From positions 131,501 through 195,500 of the forward strand of contig NZ_FUZU01000002.1 of the NCBI RefSeq assembly GCF_900167975.1: a stretch of 64,000 bases of DNA, written 5' to 3'. The position numbers and the translations under genes were made by a program. Source of the DNA: Ohtaekwangia koreensis. Lineage in GTDB: Bacteria > Bacteroidota > Bacteroidia > Cytophagales > Cyclobacteriaceae. The notes under the pieces were generated by a model, which worked only from the letters and a program-made list of their open reading frames with translations, was not told the DNA's origin and searched no databases. Within the stretch, counting starts at the first letter, position 1, and every line of letters starts with the position of its first letter. This document shows positions 4,570 to 10,929 of the stretch, one piece after another.

Positions 4570-4654
4570 AGAGGAGTGGTAGAGCGGTTTATTGCACCGG
4601 TCTTGAAAACCGGAGACTGTAACAGGTCCGGGGGTTCGAATCCCTCCTCCTCTG
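4570..4654 (+). tRNA. tRNA-Ser (anticodon TGA)
   Basis: An 85-base class II tRNA. The acceptor AGAGGAG (4570-4576) pairs perfectly with CTCCTCT (4647-4653), with G as the discriminator base. The anticodon stem CCGGT/ACCGG encloses loop CTTGAAA, giving anticodon TGA. A long variable arm follows, then a T-arm with loop TTCGAAT. CCA is not encoded. It reads UCN serine codons. A good promoter lies upstream and a strong terminator downstream. No copy of the tRNA 3' end was seen elsewhere in the window, so there is no evidence that it served as an attachment site for the island that follows. Confidence 0.95.
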
Positions 4655-5256: not shown

Positions 5257-5943
5257 TTACTTTGCTGGTCGTCTATCAAACAAAGCTTTCCGAACTGGCT
5301 CAACAATCTGGTCTACTTTGTTTTTTCGAACGGGTATATCTAGGTACGCTCCTGCTGTATATTCGGTGGGGGTGATTCGCCTCAAATGCCTTCTAAACAA
5401 CCTCTCGTCAATAGTCGCATTAGGATTTTGCTCGCGTAACTGTTTAATAAATTGCTGAAAGAACCAAATTGGAACACCATCTTCAGTCCAATCTTCGTAA
5501 TAGAAATATTCTTCCGTTTCGATGAATCCCTTTACCACGCTGATACAAAAGCCGACACATGTCATATACTCCTCAACTCCGCTTTGAGAAAAATATCGTC
5601 CTTCTTTGTCGTAATAATCACCTGCAAAGAAGTATCCGTACGTTGGATTAGCATTTTGCTGGATCACTAAACAATGTGCATAAAAAGCAGAAACTTCCTC
5701 TTTGGAAACGAATTTCAATTTCTTAAAAATGAAAGCCCTGGTCACGTTGTCATTGAATTCTACATCACTACCTGTGTAATGGAATAGATTGTAGTTGCCT
5801 TGATAAGCGATCACCAATCCCGAATGGTGAGCAACGCCATCCTTGTCCACGTAGATGGCCACGCCAACGAAATCGGAATCAATTTCATGTGAGTCTGTTC
5901 GGAGAAGCTCACCATTTATTTCTTCGAGTGTAATTAACATCAA
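5257..5943 (-). CDS. Unknown 228-residue protein with a permuted papain/NlpC-like residue pattern
   Basis: I do not recognise the family. A histidine motif comes first: HHSGLVIAYQGNYNLFHYTG (residues 39-58, with His39/His40 and His55). It is followed about 75 residues later by MTCVGFCISVVKG (Cys129 and Cys133). This order, 'H.G..i....v.H' and then a cysteine at the start of a helix, is that of circularly permuted papain-like amidases of the NlpC/LRAT/YiiX type. The acidic, aromatic middle (140-160) is unassigned. There is no signal peptide, so it should act in the cytoplasm. It is the last gene of a three-gene leftward operon, 3 bases after the preceding stop, divergent from a ubiquitin-like conjugation operon. 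A peptidase acting on ubiquitin-like conjugates is therefore an attractive but unproven idea. Confidence 0.55.
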   Translation of the reverse strand: MMLITLEEINGELLRTDSHEIDSDFVGVAIYVDKDGVAHHSGLVIAYQGNYNLFHYTGSDVEFNDNVTRAFIFKKLKFVSKEEVSAFYAHCLVIQQNANPTYGYFFAGDYYDKEGRYFSQSGVEEYMTCVGFCISVVKGFIETEEYFYYEDWTEDGVPIWFFQQFIKQLREQNPNATIDERLFRRHLRRITPTEYTAGAYLDIPVRKNKVDQIVEPVRKALFDRRPAK

Positions 5944-5946
5944 GTG

Positions 5947-6891
5947 TTAGACTAAAGCTCCAATTTTAGACTCAAGTTTTTCTTTTACCGATTGCCGCAA
6001 CTGAGACACATCTTCCTGGTCTTTCAAGGATTTAGTAATTATCAAAATGGTCTTCAACGTACTAGCACTAAGTGAGTCATGATTGAAGAGTCGCATTAAT
6101 TTTCGGAGATATCCGAAATTTTTGCTTTCTATGTACTCCCTAAATTTACCGTGTAACAATACTAAAGCATCAACCTCATCCTTTTTGTTAAAGTCCTTGA
6201 TGAGTTCAGTGAAGAGATTGTAAATAGCTTCTTCAGTATAAAAATCGCAAAAGGTATACTTAATGGCACCGTTTGTTTTTTTCGTACGCCAAACAGATAG
6301 CATTACTGATTGGTAGAGAAATTTGTTGACCTTGATAGCCTCACTCTCACCACAACCCACAGTATACTTCTCTTCACTATTTCCGGCAATTATGTGGATG
6401 TTCGGAATCTTTCCACCCACTTCAATTAATTTTCCGGAAAGAAAAATCAGGTCGGTATCACTAGTAATTCTCTGTCTTGTCGCCTTTACTCTGAATTTTT
6501 TAGATGATTTAATCTTTTCAAGAACAGGAACCTTGGACGATCGGGTGTAAAAATTTGCTTCATACTCAAGACCATTTTCTTGAATCAAAGACTGAATCGA
6601 TAACCAGTTTTCAACAAGATATTTGTTTGTTGATTTGTTCTGAGTTACCTCATCAAAGTCCTCATGAACTTTTTTGATTATGGCTTCCGAAGCTTCCGCA
6701 ACCAAAGTAGCTGAACCTTTAAGAATTTGAATCTTTACATTCTGGTCGTTGGCCGAATCGGATAAAATATTCGTGAGAGATTGCATAAGGGTTACAAGAG
6801 ATCTAGTAGCAACCATCGACATTGCTGCAAGATCAACATCCTTTCCTTTCGCGTCTTTGACTATTTTAAACTCTATCTTGTTTCCAGACAT
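5947..6891 (-). CDS. Unknown 314-residue cytoplasmic protein, partner of the HTH-ImmA/IrrE gene
   Basis: Not recognised as a named domain. The N-terminus (IEFKIVKDAKGKDVDLAAMS) is followed by 'VKIQILKGSATLVAEAS' near residue 52, a beta-hairpin-like unit that occurs in small uncharacterised proteins found beside regulators. A lysine/arginine-rich middle (SSKKFRVKATRQR) suggests nucleic-acid contact. The C-terminal ~90 residues are helical. There is no signal peptide or membrane segment. It lies 50 bases downstream of the HTH-ImmA/IrrE gene and 3 bases upstream of the papain-like candidate. It may be the proteolysis target or cofactor of the metallopeptidase, or a DNA/RNA-binding effector; nothing decides between these. 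Confidence 0.6.
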   Translation of the reverse strand: MSGNKIEFKIVKDAKGKDVDLAAMSMVATRSLVTLMQSLTNILSDSANDQNVKIQILKGSATLVAEASEAIIKKVHEDFDEVTQNKSTNKYLVENWLSIQSLIQENGLEYEANFYTRSSKVPVLEKIKSSKKFRVKATRQRITSDTDLIFLSGKLIEVGGKIPNIHIIAGNSEEKYTVGCGESEAIKVNKFLYQSVMLSVWRTKKTNGAIKYTFCDFYTEEAIYNLFTELIKDFNKKDEVDALVLLHGKFREYIESKNFGYLRKLMRLFNHDSLSASTLKTILIITKSLKDQEDVSQLRQSVKEKLESKIGALV

Positions 6892-6941: not shown

Positions 6942-8060
6942 CTAGAATAAATTCCACGGATCCGCTTTGTACCGTTCCGGAATTTGATCCCTAACCGACT
7001 CCTTGAATCGATGAAGTGTCGAATACGAAACAAGTTCGTTGTGCGCAAGTAAACCCACAACTATGGATGGATGAATATCCTTCTCATCTGAGAACTCAAT
7101 TACTTTTTCTTCTGTAATATAGTTTGTATCGTTTTCGAAGTGCTCTAAGATATCAGGCTGTAGCAGGACTTTTTCAGCATTCTCGTTAGCTTCCAACTCT
7201 TTCGCAGAGGTTGACTTCTTAGTAGTGTCATCTATAAAAATCGCTTCTCTCTCATCCTTAGTCAAGTGTAAAGTGATATGACTCAATTCGTGCGCAAGAG
7301 TGAACCAAAAATTGTCTACCCGATCATAACGACCTGTTAAGGCAACAACAGGGCCTTCAGCTGACAAGAAGGCAGCACCATCGAGATAGGTTTTTGAAAG
7401 ATGGGAGAGAAACACAAATTTGACTCCGACTTGCACCAACTCATTCAGGAAGTTTTTTATACCTCCTTCTTTATTTGTGTATGAGTGAACATCAGTCATT
7501 AGTTCAGCTAATGCCTTTTTTTGAAATGGTTTTGCTTTAATTGTTTTTGAAAAATTTAAAGCCATTTGATGCCAGATCAGGGCGTTGTTTTGATTGAAAG
7601 TATTTTCGAATGCAGAAGAAGTTCGGTATTCAAGTCGTGTTCGATCTGTCTCCAAGAAAGATAGGTCTAGCTCTTTGCCCTTGGAAATATTCCAGAACCG
7701 TCTCAATTCTTTATCAAGGTCTTCGCCTTCCTTTATCCATCTCTTTTTAATCAGTTCATTTATTGGCATGTATTTGTATACATCAGCCTTCAATCTGACC
7801 TTATCATTATTCCCTGTATTGTTTTCGAGTTGAAATTTTGCACCCAATTCTATCCATTGAAGTGCTGTCAATTCAAAAACCTCTGCAAGTGACTTTGCAA
7901 TGTCAAGTGAGATTGGCTTTTTGTCCTTAATTATTTCGTTTGTGTGCTTGAGGGAAATTGACAGAATGTAAGATAAGTCGTCTTGGGTCCAATCCTTTTC
8001 CTTCAATAAACATTTCAAAGCCTCACCAGGGCTCCGAAAATCCTTCGTGCTTACACTCAT
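6942..8060 (-). CDS. XRE/HigA-type HTH regulator fused to an ImmA/IrrE metallopeptidase
   Basis: 372 residues. The N-terminal ~75 residues form a HigA-like helix-turn-helix (WTQDDLSYILSISLKHTNEI, then ...SLDIAKSLAEVFELTALQWI). The C-terminal half is an ImmA/IrrE zinc peptidase. The catalytic motif HELSH is at residues 257-261 in FTLAHELSHITLHL, and the downstream KELEANENAEKVLLQP supplies the usual third ligand and helix. ImmA of ICEBs1 and IrrE/DdrO of Deinococcus derepress genes by cleaving repressors; fused forms combine DNA binding and protease. It is the first gene of the leftward operon and divergent from the ubiquitin-like operon. Three TWACC-N5-GGTAA inverted repeats upstream (8171-8269) are candidate binding sites. 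Confidence 0.85.
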   Translation of the reverse strand: MSVSTKDFRSPGEALKCLLKEKDWTQDDLSYILSISLKHTNEIIKDKKPISLDIAKSLAEVFELTALQWIELGAKFQLENNTGNNDKVRLKADVYKYMPINELIKKRWIKEGEDLDKELRRFWNISKGKELDLSFLETDRTRLEYRTSSAFENTFNQNNALIWHQMALNFSKTIKAKPFQKKALAELMTDVHSYTNKEGGIKNFLNELVQVGVKFVFLSHLSKTYLDGAAFLSAEGPVVALTGRYDRVDNFWFTLAHELSHITLHLTKDEREAIFIDDTTKKSTSAKELEANENAEKVLLQPDILEHFENDTNYITEEKVIEFSDEKDIHPSIVVGLLAHNELVSYSTLHRFKESVRDQIPERYKADPWNLF

Positions 8061-8170
8061 AGAGTTAGTTTACTGTCTGTAGCGATTTAAAGAACAAAAT
8101 TTTAAACTTCTAATTATAAGGCAATTAGAATGACCAAAGCTAAAGCTTTACTGGAAGTACAAGACAAATA

Positions 8171-8185
8171 TAACCTATTTGGTAA
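8171..8185. promoter_or_regulatory. Candidate operator copy 1, TAACC-N5-GGTAA
   Basis: TAACCTATTTGGTAA, with arms ACC/GGT extended by A-T pairs. It lies 110 bases upstream of the HTH-ImmA/IrrE start. It is the closest to that gene of three copies sharing the same arms. Confidence 0.6.
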
Positions 8186-8221
8186 CATTCTAAAATGATT
8201 TTTTGACGTGTATTTCAGAGA

Positions 8222-8236
8222 TAACCCAATAGGTAA
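8222..8236. promoter_or_regulatory. Candidate operator copy 2, TAACC-N5-GGTAA
   Basis: TAACCCAATAGGTAA keeps both arms of copy 1 with a different spacer. It starts 51 bases after the start of copy 1. Confidence 0.6.
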
Positions 8237-8254
8237 ACAATTAAATTTATTTTA

Positions 8255-8269
8255 TTACCTAATTGGTAA
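8255..8269. promoter_or_regulatory. Candidate operator copy 3, TTACC-N5-GGTAA
   Basis: TTACCTAATTGGTAA has perfect 5-base arms around a 5-base spacer. It starts 33 bases after the start of copy 2. The site of action (leftward promoter, rightward promoter or both) is not resolved. Confidence 0.6.
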
Positions 8270-8328
8270 TTACAGAATTTTACTTTTACTTTTGAGCACC
8301 TGATCGGTTTTGGCAGTCCAATTGACGC

Positions 8329-8362
8329 AAAAAAAAATCAGGCAGAGTGTCTACCTGATTTT
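8329..8362 (-). terminator. Hairpin with a T9 tail on the minus strand
   Basis: Arms AAAATCAGG (8334-8342) and CCTGATTTT (8354-8362) pair perfectly. On the minus strand the stem runs into nine Ts, an ideal terminator for a leftward transcript. On the plus strand only four Ts follow. No leftward gene is visible to its right before the ubiquitin-like operon. Confidence 0.65.
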
Positions 8363-8500
8363 GGTGTAGAAATCTCGGATTAATCGGTCCAAGAAGTTCT
8401 TTTGTGATTCGCACTGCAAAAGTACTTACTATTTCTAACCATTCCAAATAGACATTCTTGTTCTAGTATAGATTACAGTACTTAAAGTTAGTAAGCCCGA

Positions 8501-8628
8501 TTAAAGTTCAAGTGCACACTTCCATGTAAAAAAGCGCAAGCTTCCCATCAGGAAGGTTGCTCTATACGATCCTGTATTGAGGATTGTGTAGAGAGAGGGT
8601 TATCATTTCTTATTACTTGAACTTTTAA
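8501..8628 (+). ncRNA. Predicted three-stem structured RNA upstream of the ubiquitin-like operon
   Basis: P1: TTAAAGTTCAAGTG (8501-8514) pairs with ACTTGAACTTTTAA (8615-8628), with one bulged T. It encloses two hairpins. P2: GCAAGCTTCC (8536-8545) pairs with GGAAGGTTGC (8551-8560) over a 5-base loop, with one G-G mismatch. P3: CTCTATACGATCCT (8560-8573) pairs with AGGATTGTGTAGAG (8580-8593) over a 6-base loop. Two positions in P3 pair only as G-U on the plus strand and would be A-C mismatches on the other, so the RNA reads rightward. P1 closes 12 bases before the ATG at 8641. It could be a cis-regulatory leader that hides the start region, or an independent small RNA. It resembles no riboswitch I recognise. 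No folding software was run. Confidence 0.6.
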
Positions 8629-8640
8629 TTGGAAACAATA

Positions 8641-9132
8641 ATGAATCAATTTAACAATGAGGATTTGGCCTCAAAAAAAACCAAAACTTTCAAAGCGTTA
8701 GTAGATGACGTTTTGGTAAAATTCGACCATCCTAAAGTAACTGGTAAGGAATTACTGACGGGAGCAGGGGTAAAAAACCTGGAATGTGTATCGCTGTTCC
8801 AAAAGCTCAAAGGCTGTGACTTTGAACGAATTAGTCTGGATGAAAAAGTTGATCTTTCTCATCCTAGTTTGGAGAAGTTCGTAGTCAAACCTCCTGACTC
8901 TTGGAACTACACTATTGATGAAGAGCCGGAAACCAGCACAGAGGCTAAGCTATCAGCAAATCAAATTTTAGCCAATGCCGGTATCACACCTGTTACCGAC
9001 TATTACCTGGTAGAATTTGATAGCACTGGTAATGAAATAACCCATAAGGATACTCCAGATGCTCCGATTCAACTGAAATGCCCTGGATCAAAATTCGTGT
9101 CTGTATTTAAAGGCGAAACCCCTGTTTCGTAA
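8641..9132 (+). CDS. Tandem ubiquitin-like protein (multiubiquitin-type, two beta-grasp domains)
   Basis: 163 residues from the ATG at 8641 (a TTG four codons earlier is less likely). There are two multiubiquitin-type repeats. Repeat 1 is residues ~15-84 (KVTGKELLTGAGVKNLECVS, then ...DEKVDLSHPSLEKFVVKP). Repeat 2 is ~88-163 (KLSANQILANAGITPVTDYY, then ...PIQLKCPGSKFVSVFKG). Both show the pattern 'vtg.elL..aG......L', 'i.vDL', 'eKFv.v'. The C-terminus is GETPVS and lacks a di-glycine, as I recall for this family, so how the conjugation site is exposed is unclear. It is the modifier for the E2 and JAB-E1 encoded 7 bases downstream. A structured RNA precedes it. Confidence 0.85.
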   Translation: MNQFNNEDLASKKTKTFKALVDDVLVKFDHPKVTGKELLTGAGVKNLECVSLFQKLKGCDFERISLDEKVDLSHPSLEKFVVKPPDSWNYTIDEEPETSTEAKLSANQILANAGITPVTDYYLVEFDSTGNEITHKDTPDAPIQLKCPGSKFVSVFKGETPVS

Positions 9133-9139
9133 CATTAAT

Positions 9140-9493
9140 ATGGCACGGGCTGATTTTATCAATCAATTGAAAGCTCTTGGGTTTGAAACCCAAGAGCTTA
9201 GCAATAGTATCGTAGCGATCGAGTACCTTGTTCCCATCGGGAAAAACAAGGGAAAAACAGTGCGGCTTGGGTTTCAAGTACAGGACGACTTTCCCATGAA
9301 TTGCCCCGCTGGTCTTCATTTCAATGCGGTAAACGCAGATAACTGGAAGGAGCCTCGTCAAAATGTAAGCGACAGCCCACTTGGATCCGGATGGAGATAC
9401 TGGAGTAGGCGATTTCCAGACTGGAACCGAACGGATCGATCTGTAAGAACATTCCTTGCGCATGTGAGAAACATTCTAACCAGAATCGAATGA
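9140..9493 (+). CDS. E2-like conjugating protein (prokaryotic E2 family)
   Basis: 117 residues, the compact size of bacterial E2-like proteins. Strand region 'AIEYLVPIGKNKGKTVRLGF' leads into the proline motif FPMNCPAGLHF (residues 51-61), equivalent to the P-x-x-P-P turn of E2 folds. Then comes GWRYWSRRFPDW (84-95) and a final helix RTFLAHVRNIL. It should accept the ubiquitin-like protein from the E1 and pass it to a target. Cys55, inside the proline motif, is the only cysteine, so the nucleophile is either an unusually placed cysteine or another residue such as one of the serines near 77-83. It lies between the modifier gene and the E1 gene and overlaps the E1 start by 4 bases (ATGA), implying translational coupling. 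Confidence 0.8.
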   Translation: MARADFINQLKALGFETQELSNSIVAIEYLVPIGKNKGKTVRLGFQVQDDFPMNCPAGLHFNAVNADNWKEPRQNVSDSPLGSGWRYWSRRFPDWNRTDRSVRTFLAHVRNILTRIE

Positions 9494-10929
9494 AGAGTTA
9501 TAGTATGAATATGACTAGCGCCATCCATGATGCGCTAGTCAAACACTTAATTCGGCCGGATGGGCAAGAGGATCTATGTTTCGCTACTTATGTTCCAAGC
9601 ACTGGCGCGATGCGAACTACTGGGATAATTACCGAGATAATTCTTCCTAATGAAGGTGACCGAAACGTACATTGGAATGTAGGCTTTATGCCAGAGTATT
9701 TTGAAAGGGCAATCCGTATTGCGCGAGGTAAAAAACAAGGCTTGGTGTTCTTACACTCGCACTTAACGTCTGGCTGGCAGGGAATGAGCAAAGACGATGT
9801 TGTTGCCGAAACTAGACTTGCCCCCGCTGCCTTCTCAACTACTTCATTTCCTCTCGTTGGACTAACGATGGGAACTGATGGTGCATGTAGTGCAAGATTC
9901 TGGATAAAGGATCCTCACGCAAAGAGATCATATCAAAGATTTTGGTGTGAGAATGTCAGGGTTATTGGCAAGAAGCTTTCAATAACCTTTAACGACCATC
10001 TTCTCAAACCTGCCTTCAACTCCGAACAACAGATGCGCACCATATCTGCATGGGGCCCAAAAATTCAAGAGGATCTCTCGAGGATAAAAATAGTAATAGC
10101 CGGACTCGGTAGTGTCGGGAGCATCATCGCGGAAATTTTGGCAAGAGCTGGTTTTTCAAATTTTATTTTGATTGACTTTGACTTAGTCGAACTGAAAAAC
10201 CTAGATCGATGTAGCGGAATGTTCAAAGAAGATGTTGGACGATTCAAAGTTGACACCGTTCGAGATGCAATCTTGAAATGTGCTACCTCTCCAGATGTTA
10301 GAGTTAGAGTTGTGCCATTTAGTATTTGCGAGACGGAGGGATTTCACGCAGCCCTAGATGGCGATATAGTGTTCTCTTGTGTTGACCGGCCATGGCCAAG
10401 ACAAGTGCTGAATTTTATTTCTTACGCGCACTTAGTCCCCATAATTGATGGTGGCATTTTAGTCAGAACTAACAGCAGCAATACTCGAATTATTGGAGCT
10501 GATTGGAAAGCACAGACGGTTGGTTACAAACGTGCCTGCCTGGAATGCTTGGGTCAATACAAAACGGAAAATGCCATCCTTGAGAGAAACGGGTTTCTGG
10601 ACGATCCGAGTTATGTGTTAGGCCTTGTGGAGGATAAGGCCTATAAAGAAGCACACGAAAATGTTTTTCCATTCAGTTCAAACTTGGCTTCGCTTGAGGT
10701 GTTGCAGCTGCTAAGCTTATTCATCGCTCCCTCTGGGTTAGCAGATGTTGGTCAACAGATGTTCCACTTTACATTGGGTACGATGGATCAAGATAAAACA
10801 AAAGAGTGCTGCACTGGATGTTACTTTCAGTCAATTGTAGGCAAAGGTGATAGCACTGGAGTACAAGTATACGATCGACATTTAGTAGCAGAGAATGCGA
10901 GAGCAATTCAACTATCTACCTCTAAATGA
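9490..10929 (+). CDS. JAB deconjugase-ThiF/E1 activating enzyme fusion
   Basis: 479 residues. The N-terminal JAB/JAMM zinc peptidase has the motif LHSHLTSGWQGMSKDD: His89 and His91, Ser100 and Asp103, with a candidate general-base glutamate at ~49. This domain removes or trims ubiquitin-like proteins. The C-terminal ThiF/E1 domain starts near 190. It has the ATP-binding glycine motif GLGSVGS (205-211), then LIDFDLVELKNLDR (227-240). Cysteines fitting a zinc site are CLEC (350-353) and CCTGC (440-444); Cys350 or a neighbour may also be the catalytic cysteine. It would adenylate the modifier C-terminus and transfer it to the E2. Domain order and neighbours match bacterial ubiquitin-like cassettes described from comparative genomics. 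A strong terminator follows. Confidence 0.88.
   Translation: MKSYSMNMTSAIHDALVKHLIRPDGQEDLCFATYVPSTGAMRTTGIITEIILPNEGDRNVHWNVGFMPEYFERAIRIARGKKQGLVFLHSHLTSGWQGMSKDDVVAETRLAPAAFSTTSFPLVGLTMGTDGACSARFWIKDPHAKRSYQRFWCENVRVIGKKLSITFNDHLLKPAFNSEQQMRTISAWGPKIQEDLSRIKIVIAGLGSVGSIIAEILARAGFSNFILIDFDLVELKNLDRCSGMFKEDVGRFKVDTVRDAILKCATSPDVRVRVVPFSICETEGFHAALDGDIVFSCVDRPWPRQVLNFISYAHLVPIIDGGILVRTNSSNTRIIGADWKAQTVGYKRACLECLGQYKTENAILERNGFLDDPSYVLGLVEDKAYKEAHENVFPFSSNLASLEVLQLLSLFIAPSGLADVGQQMFHFTLGTMDQDKTKECCTGCYFQSIVGKGDSTGVQVYDRHLVAENARAIQLSTSK

Follow-up and report, generated by a model that had tools for sequence, protein, structure and literature searches.

A Bub operon and a divergent regulator gene

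The window, a 64,000-nt stretch of DNA from Ohtaekwangia koreensis (GCF_900167975.1, NZ_FUZU01000002.1, positions 131,501-195,500; C5:131501-195500 in our genome numbering), contains a rightward operon whose first gene, 8641..9132 (+), encodes a BubA-like ubiquitin-like (Ubl) modifier. This assignment comes from Pfam (Multi_ubiq, PF14452) and from PDB matches to 9cd2 (1.9e-6), 9d59 and, weakly, Citrobacter BubA 9ea8 (0.0089). The modifier gene is followed by a gene for a 117-aa protein, 9140..9493 (+), and by the gene of a BubCD-like E1 protein with a Pfam ThiF match, 9490..10929 (+), presumed to be a JAB-E1 fusion, whose best solved relative is Citrobacter BubCD 9ea4 (1.7e-22 over residues 7-328). 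With a BubA-like multi-ubiquitin modifier and a BubCD-like E1/JAB protein, the operon is, judged by these matches, a Bub operon. The 117-aa protein gave no Pfam or NCBIfam match and was aligned across six operons at 55-82% identity; it is a putative E2-like conjugating protein, and from its position it should be the E2 of the operon.

Divergent from the operon lies an HTH-ImmA/IrrE regulator gene, 6942..8060 (-), in which Peptidase_M78 scores above the Pfam cut-off and HTH_19 below it (25.7 bits vs 30.2). PADLOC assigned the regulator to PD-Lambda-2_B at 3.7e-50, with a weak match to capP (1.8e-4). An HTH plus ImmA/IrrE peptidase adjoins the operon, which is the CapH+CapP type of arrangement. 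According to the parts of PMC13373217 used here, 219 of 544 Bub operons stand beside CapW or CapH+CapP controllers, and silencing of these operons is described there via protein regulators that respond to DNA damage. The window locus resembles those operons in its BubA and BubCD homologues and in the adjoining HTH/M78 peptidase gene, and differs from the CapH+CapP or CapW cases of the same partial source in that its regulator is a fusion closest to PD-Lambda-2_B. The likeness to PD-Lambda-2 is confined to this regulator, whereas the other genes of that system were not found: the two genes behind the regulator (228 and 314 aa, 5257-6891, minus strand) gave no Pfam, PADLOC or NCBIfam match. Further left, a tRNA gene at 4570-4654, a possible island insertion site, is the sole match of Rfam 15 above gathering threshold in the whole window. 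In a separate observation on the Rhodococcus plasmid pNAPH (L116 2318-3921), a RelE-like toxin and a HigA-ImmA antitoxin are encoded divergently from a Bub-like modifier/E1 operon, so that a toxin-antitoxin pair sits in the controller position.

In the stretch that separates the HTH-ImmA gene from the small RNA described below, a palindrome like TTACCTAATTGGTAA occurs in three copies at 8171, 8222 and 8255 (8171-8269) when up to 4 mismatches are allowed; at least three copies were found in 0 of 500 mononucleotide shuffles. The same search gave none in 8400-8640. These palindromes are perhaps operators of the HTH-ImmA gene.

Predicted fold of the leader and its comparison among relatives

The region directly before the modifier gene, 8497..8632 (+), is predicted to fold into a closed domain, with an MFE of -53.6 kcal/mol on the plus strand vs -37.1 kcal/mol on the minus strand. 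Folding of 8480-8650 gave -55.1 kcal/mol against -32.3 +/- 3.8 in dinucleotide shuffles (z -6.06; 0 of 200 shuffles as stable), and the element is single-copy in the 7.24-Mb genome (1 match at E <= 1). The domain is closed by helix P1, whose 5' arm (8497..8513) pairs with a 3' arm (8615..8632) ending 8 nt short of the BubA ATG at 8641; its 17 pairs have probabilities of 0.50-1.00, 12 of them 0.97 or more. P1 encloses hairpin P2 (8519..8555, plus strand; stem 8519-8523/8551-8555, probability 0.79), hairpin P3 (8561..8592, plus strand; 8561-8573/8580-8592, 13 pairs at 0.89-1.00) and a small additional hairpin between P3 and the P1 3' arm. By eye, the P2 loop CC(C) and a downstream AGGG might also form a pseudoknot.

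An earlier note on this DNA, made from the letters, had described a closing stem around a 10-bp and a 14-bp hairpin, and most of this description is borne out by the computed fold. The closing stem is longer than was claimed there, and its end, correctly placed 12 bases before the ATG for the stem as noted, moves to 8 bases before it in the extended helix. The 14-bp hairpin corresponds to P3, and both of its G-U pairs can be read on the plus strand; together with the stronger plus-strand fold they favour, as the note had it, a rightward RNA. The 10-bp hairpin (8536-8545/8551-8560, with one G.G mismatch) is a possible form and a minority one, with a probability of about 0.2 vs 0.79 for the P2 stem, and forcing it costs 1.5 kcal/mol (-52.1 vs -53.6). 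The statement that no known riboswitch class fits agrees with Rfam, where no family matched; the best sub-threshold match in 8060-8660 was rli38, at 23.9 bits with 49 needed. As far as prediction reaches, a real folded structure before the modifier gene is confirmed.

Relatives of the operon, named below by our handles for genomes (G) and loci (L), were collected by two routes. The E1 protein, searched against 295 genomes of the family, matched in 18 of them at 1e-15 or lower. Besides the window there are five close E1 relatives (G996, G844, G186, G829 and G919), 61-74% identical over most of the protein (G186, 64%), and G975 adds a sixth, a fragment located at the end of a contig. Seven further loci with Ubl operons came through the small-RNA model (G838, G836, G523, G730, G682, G511 and G756). 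A closing helix can be drawn before the modifier ATG in four of the five close relatives, G186 being the exception.

In the helix test, the best helix formed by positions -200..-76 with the last 32 bases ahead of the ATG was compared with those of 200 shuffles, the two arms being shuffled separately, in 13 loci including the window. Five loci reached p <= 0.05, namely the window (0.005), G996 (0.045), G844 (0.010), G829 (0.005) and G511 (0.005). The other eight gave 0.100 (G186), 0.144 (G756), 0.224 (G682), 0.244 (G730), 0.284 (G523), 0.348 (G919), 0.418 (G838) and 0.726 (G836). When the 5' arm alone was shuffled, G996 moved to 0.055 and G186 to 0.065 and the other verdicts were the same, leaving 4 of 13 significant. 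Fisher's combination over the 12 loci without the window was 1.2e-4 with both arms shuffled and 5.8e-5 with the 5' arm alone, values which overstate independence because the positives include two related pairs (window/G996 and G844/G829); the independent positives are therefore three. In control genes, the same test with 60 shuffles each gave p <= 0.05 in 6 of 110. An earlier and cruder helix test, based on duplex energy with the whole region shuffled, was negative, with Fisher values of 0.63 without the window and 0.30 with it.

Paired changes were found in the closing helix of the pair G844/G829, in which 12 of 12 P1 pairs form in both loci, with one double change from C-G to U-A and one change from G-C to G-U. 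Sliding the partner lowers the pairing to 29-46%, and the shuffle control for this pair (266 of 500) is uninformative because the alignment has two rows. Between G838 and G836, a double change from U-A to C-G in P2 was read from the alignment. The window and its closest relative, G996, have 66 of 154 leader columns in common: their P1 5' arms agree in all of 14 columns, and the interior differs widely save for a common AAGCTTCCC. By eye, leader interiors differ among the operon relatives, with patches common within pairs, such as AAGCTTCCC in window/G996 and TGATGGGAGGTCA in G838/G836. Of the 12 other operons, 11 had a fold z below zero over the 150 bases before the ATG (125 in G186), and the mean over the 12 was -1.5; G186 has no comparable structure (z +0.35, helix p 0.10). 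Pairing at homologous loci, which the earlier note had proposed as a check, is accordingly found for the closing helix in several operons, whereas the interior is mostly unconserved by eye.

More distant Ubl operons gave mixed values. Helix p was 0.085-0.935 in the five upstream regions of L086-L089, 0.025 in L078, 0.811 in L116, 0.706 in L034 and 0.881 in L035, and fold z was -6.1 in L088a, -3.6 in L078, -3.1 in L086, -3.0 in L089 and between -0.8 and +1.7 in the others.

A conserved candidate small RNA upstream of Ubl operons

On the minus strand between the regulator and the leader, a candidate small RNA of about 85 nt was delimited at 8329..8416 (ends approximate and inferred) by alignments, paired changes and model searches. 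It is preceded by a promoter-like sequence, 8417..8447 (-), with TTG at 8445-8447, a 20-nt spacer and TACTTTTG at 8417-8424, which from the consensus TTG/TAnnTTTG we take to be of Bacteroidota type. A terminator scan found an intrinsic-terminator-like hairpin at its end, 8334..8362 (-). The small RNA has no Rfam match, and a check of six loci revealed no ORF in it above 19 codons. The unit is better conserved than the leader, with 62 of 102 columns invariant over four operons. Across six operons, 96.4% of the cells in its two stems are paired, and 7 of 23 pairs carry changes on both sides, a number matched by 2 of 500 shuffles; the covariation score lies above 500 of 500 shuffles, and slid versions pair at 35-50%. 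The structure was derived from the same sequences, which favours it in this test. From these alignments, the small RNA appears to be a stronger find than the leader, and it matches no family described in Rfam. The suggestion in the earlier note of a separate RNA component of the system fits this divergent RNA better than the leader element.

Covariance models of the small RNA were searched in three draws of genomes, which partly overlap. In the family draw (295 genomes), 17 matched at E <= 0.01; six scored at least 71 bits, each of them next to a Ubl operon, and the other 11, at 42.3 bits or below, have no Ubl or ImmA genes beside them in the 2-12 kb fetched. In the order draw (390 genomes), 9 reached E <= 0.001; of these, six stand next to a Ubl operon (the window's own, G523, G730, G682, G756 and G511) and three do not in the 2-12 kb fetched. 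In the class draw (227 genomes) the window's alone among 10 matches lies beside a Ubl operon, 9 of 10 not doing so in the 2-12 kb fetched. Matches away from Ubl/ImmA genes (11 of 17, 3 of 9 and 9 of 10) were taken as terminator look-alikes and set aside.

The small RNA recurs beside three kinds of Ubl operon, and 11 loci have it on the upstream side of the Ubl gene. The first kind, as in the window, consists of modifier, 117-aa protein and E1. The second encodes a Ubl protein of about 308 aa with a DUF7665 domain, a JAB protein and a ThiF protein (domains tested in G836, read by eye in G838), and G682 was put in this kind from its Ubl and JAB genes only, these being the genes in view. The third has Multi_ubiq and DUF6791-ThiF proteins (tested in G523; G730, G756 and G511 by similarity to G523). 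The regulator beside these operons varies: some have an HTH-ImmA fusion, some have HTH and ImmA as two genes, and others have a sigma factor. In G838 and G836, whose Ubl operon is of another kind, regulator, small RNA and Ubl gene follow the same layout, with a gap of about 210 nt between small RNA and Ubl gene.

In a scan for the leftward unit of promoter and terminator, 11 of 13 Ubl upstreams had it (all but G838 and G186) vs 2 of 164 controls, and of these two, L087 is in fact a Ubl gene; 7 of the 13 Ubl upstreams had been chosen through the small RNA. The unit is present in 5 of the 6 loci found by the E1 protein alone (G186 lacks it) and in 1 of 5 more distant Ubl genes scanned (L086-L089).

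Other genes were seen in the same control regions. Genes of 141-159 aa stand between HTH-ImmA and the small RNA in L080 (5654-6094), L081 (4741-5181), L117 (1079-1504) and L118 (995-1474); they look PIN-like by eye, and those of L080 and L117 gave no Pfam match. Sigma factor genes near Ubl operons (L076 5693-6370, L077 837-1379 and L121 666-1271) are perhaps an alternative controller.

Possible modes of RNA control

We lean, by a narrow balance, towards reading the element as a folded 5' leader of the Bub operon mRNA that would mask translation of the modifier. In this model the rightward transcript would begin close to 8490, and therefore the whole 5' region would be a folded domain, with P1 tying the 5' end to the bases before the start. 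The 5' end of the transcript would pair immediately ahead of the BubA start and close a domain of two or three inner hairpins, and the region where ribosomes land would be held in or against the P1 helix, so that BubA and the downstream genes would be poorly made until the fold is opened. The fold might be opened by ribosomes or a protein, by the divergent small RNA, or through altered transcription. The conserved control region would have the order HTH-ImmA or related regulator, leftward small RNA of about 85 nt, leader and operon. The predicted fold, its position, the closing helix in several relatives and the linkage of small RNA and Ubl genes are the computed part of this model; leader transcription, translational repression and the opener are the part we infer.

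Structured 5' leaders that occlude translation starts are a general class of translational cis-regulators. The element resembles them in its folded 5' region and in the closing helix abutting the start codon, and differs in that it belongs to no Rfam class, has a fast-evolving interior and stands on a ubiquitin-like operon. Control of modifier translation, which the earlier note had put forward, gains from the suitable position and from closing helices in the equivalent position of several related operons, whereas conservation of the particular three-stem interior is not supported. The translation-regulating leader is accordingly a plausible reading, partly supported by comparison.

Two other readings concern the partners of the leader, and we regard both as unlikely. 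The inverted repeats could act as DNA, either as operators or as architectural sites used by the HTH regulator. Operator-like palindromes do stand near the window's HTH-ImmA gene, and in the distant Bub-type operon of G889 (L088) a 19-bp inverted repeat before the Ubl gene, with nearby GTGTGACA-like copies, is operator-like by eye. However, the window's palindrome is confined to 8171-8269 and absent at 8400-8640, the arms of P1, P2 and P3 are unlike one another, those of P1 lie about 100 nt apart, and both the much better fold of the plus strand (-53.6 vs -37.1 kcal/mol) and the G-U pairs favour RNA. Alternatively, the two RNAs could form a switch, P1 being opened or locked when the small RNA binds to the leader. 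In favour of this are the position of the small RNA, which in 11 loci is upstream of the Ubl gene, and an 8-mer of its hairpin loop that also occurs at the leader 5' end in the window (p 0.007), 7 bases of which recur in G996 (p 0.049), both p values coming from mononucleotide shuffles. The common motif, however, runs in the same sense and is not complementary, and over the whole set it is not significant, with a Fisher value of 0.35, in which two rows (window and G996) had the wrong loop. Moreover, cognate pairs of small RNA and leader interact no better than non-cognate ones (11 loci, permutation p 0.11). Direct pairing of the small RNA with the leader is not supported.

The repeats of G889, the 19-bp inverted one and several copies resembling GTGTGACA, stand at about 8750-8873 of L088, ahead of the Bub-type modifier gene. 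Related GCGTGACA...TGTCACGC repeats are present in L086 and L089, and together with those of L088 they look like operators of a shared regulator.

It is less probable still that the leader is processed into a free, trans-acting RNA, e.g. a decoy within the Ubl system or its scaffold. Its compact closed fold resembles many stable RNAs, but no terminator-like site was found on the plus strand in 8000-9200, and the element abuts the ATG. Nor does it have sequence relatives of its own: among 390 genomes of the order, 16 matched at E <= 0.01, namely its own and 15 short weak matches. Plasmids gave no relative and phages one 33-base match; in viral contigs an 18-base piece of the leader had no exact match, and the exact small-RNA pattern was likewise absent. 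Least credible, to the point that we reject it, is a retron RNA, a MITE or another mobile-element hairpin. Retron msr-msd RNA has closing arms around inner hairpins, which the leader's closing arms recall; the difference is that no reverse transcriptase adjoins the leader, RVT_1 matches in the genome being limited to C5:215990 and C4:1067018, and a MITE would not fit a single copy. The former gene (G000:C5:215990-216604; L037, L038), about 76 kb away and with an inverted-repeat region upstream, is by eye presumably retron-like, and the latter looks to us like a group II intron type.

Returning to the translation-masking leader, the main text of PMC13373217 does not contain the terms noncoding (in this spelling), small RNA or leader. 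A literature search, partly loose in its terms, did not find an RNA in Ubl operons, which does not establish absence from print. More broadly, we tentatively suggest, as a possibility that falls well behind the leader itself in probability, a layer of RNA control in Bub and related operons of this order. Two new families of RNA would make it up: the divergent small RNA, which is conserved, and a closed leader that evolves fast and covers the modifier start. With an ImmA-type protease or a sigma factor, they would keep protein conjugation off until infection or DNA damage. The predicted folded leader, with the small RNA that recurs beside Ubl operons, hints at RNA-based control of these systems, and the protein-level picture would be extended by RNA control in the form of a structured leader and of a small RNA that accompanies three kinds of Ubl operon.
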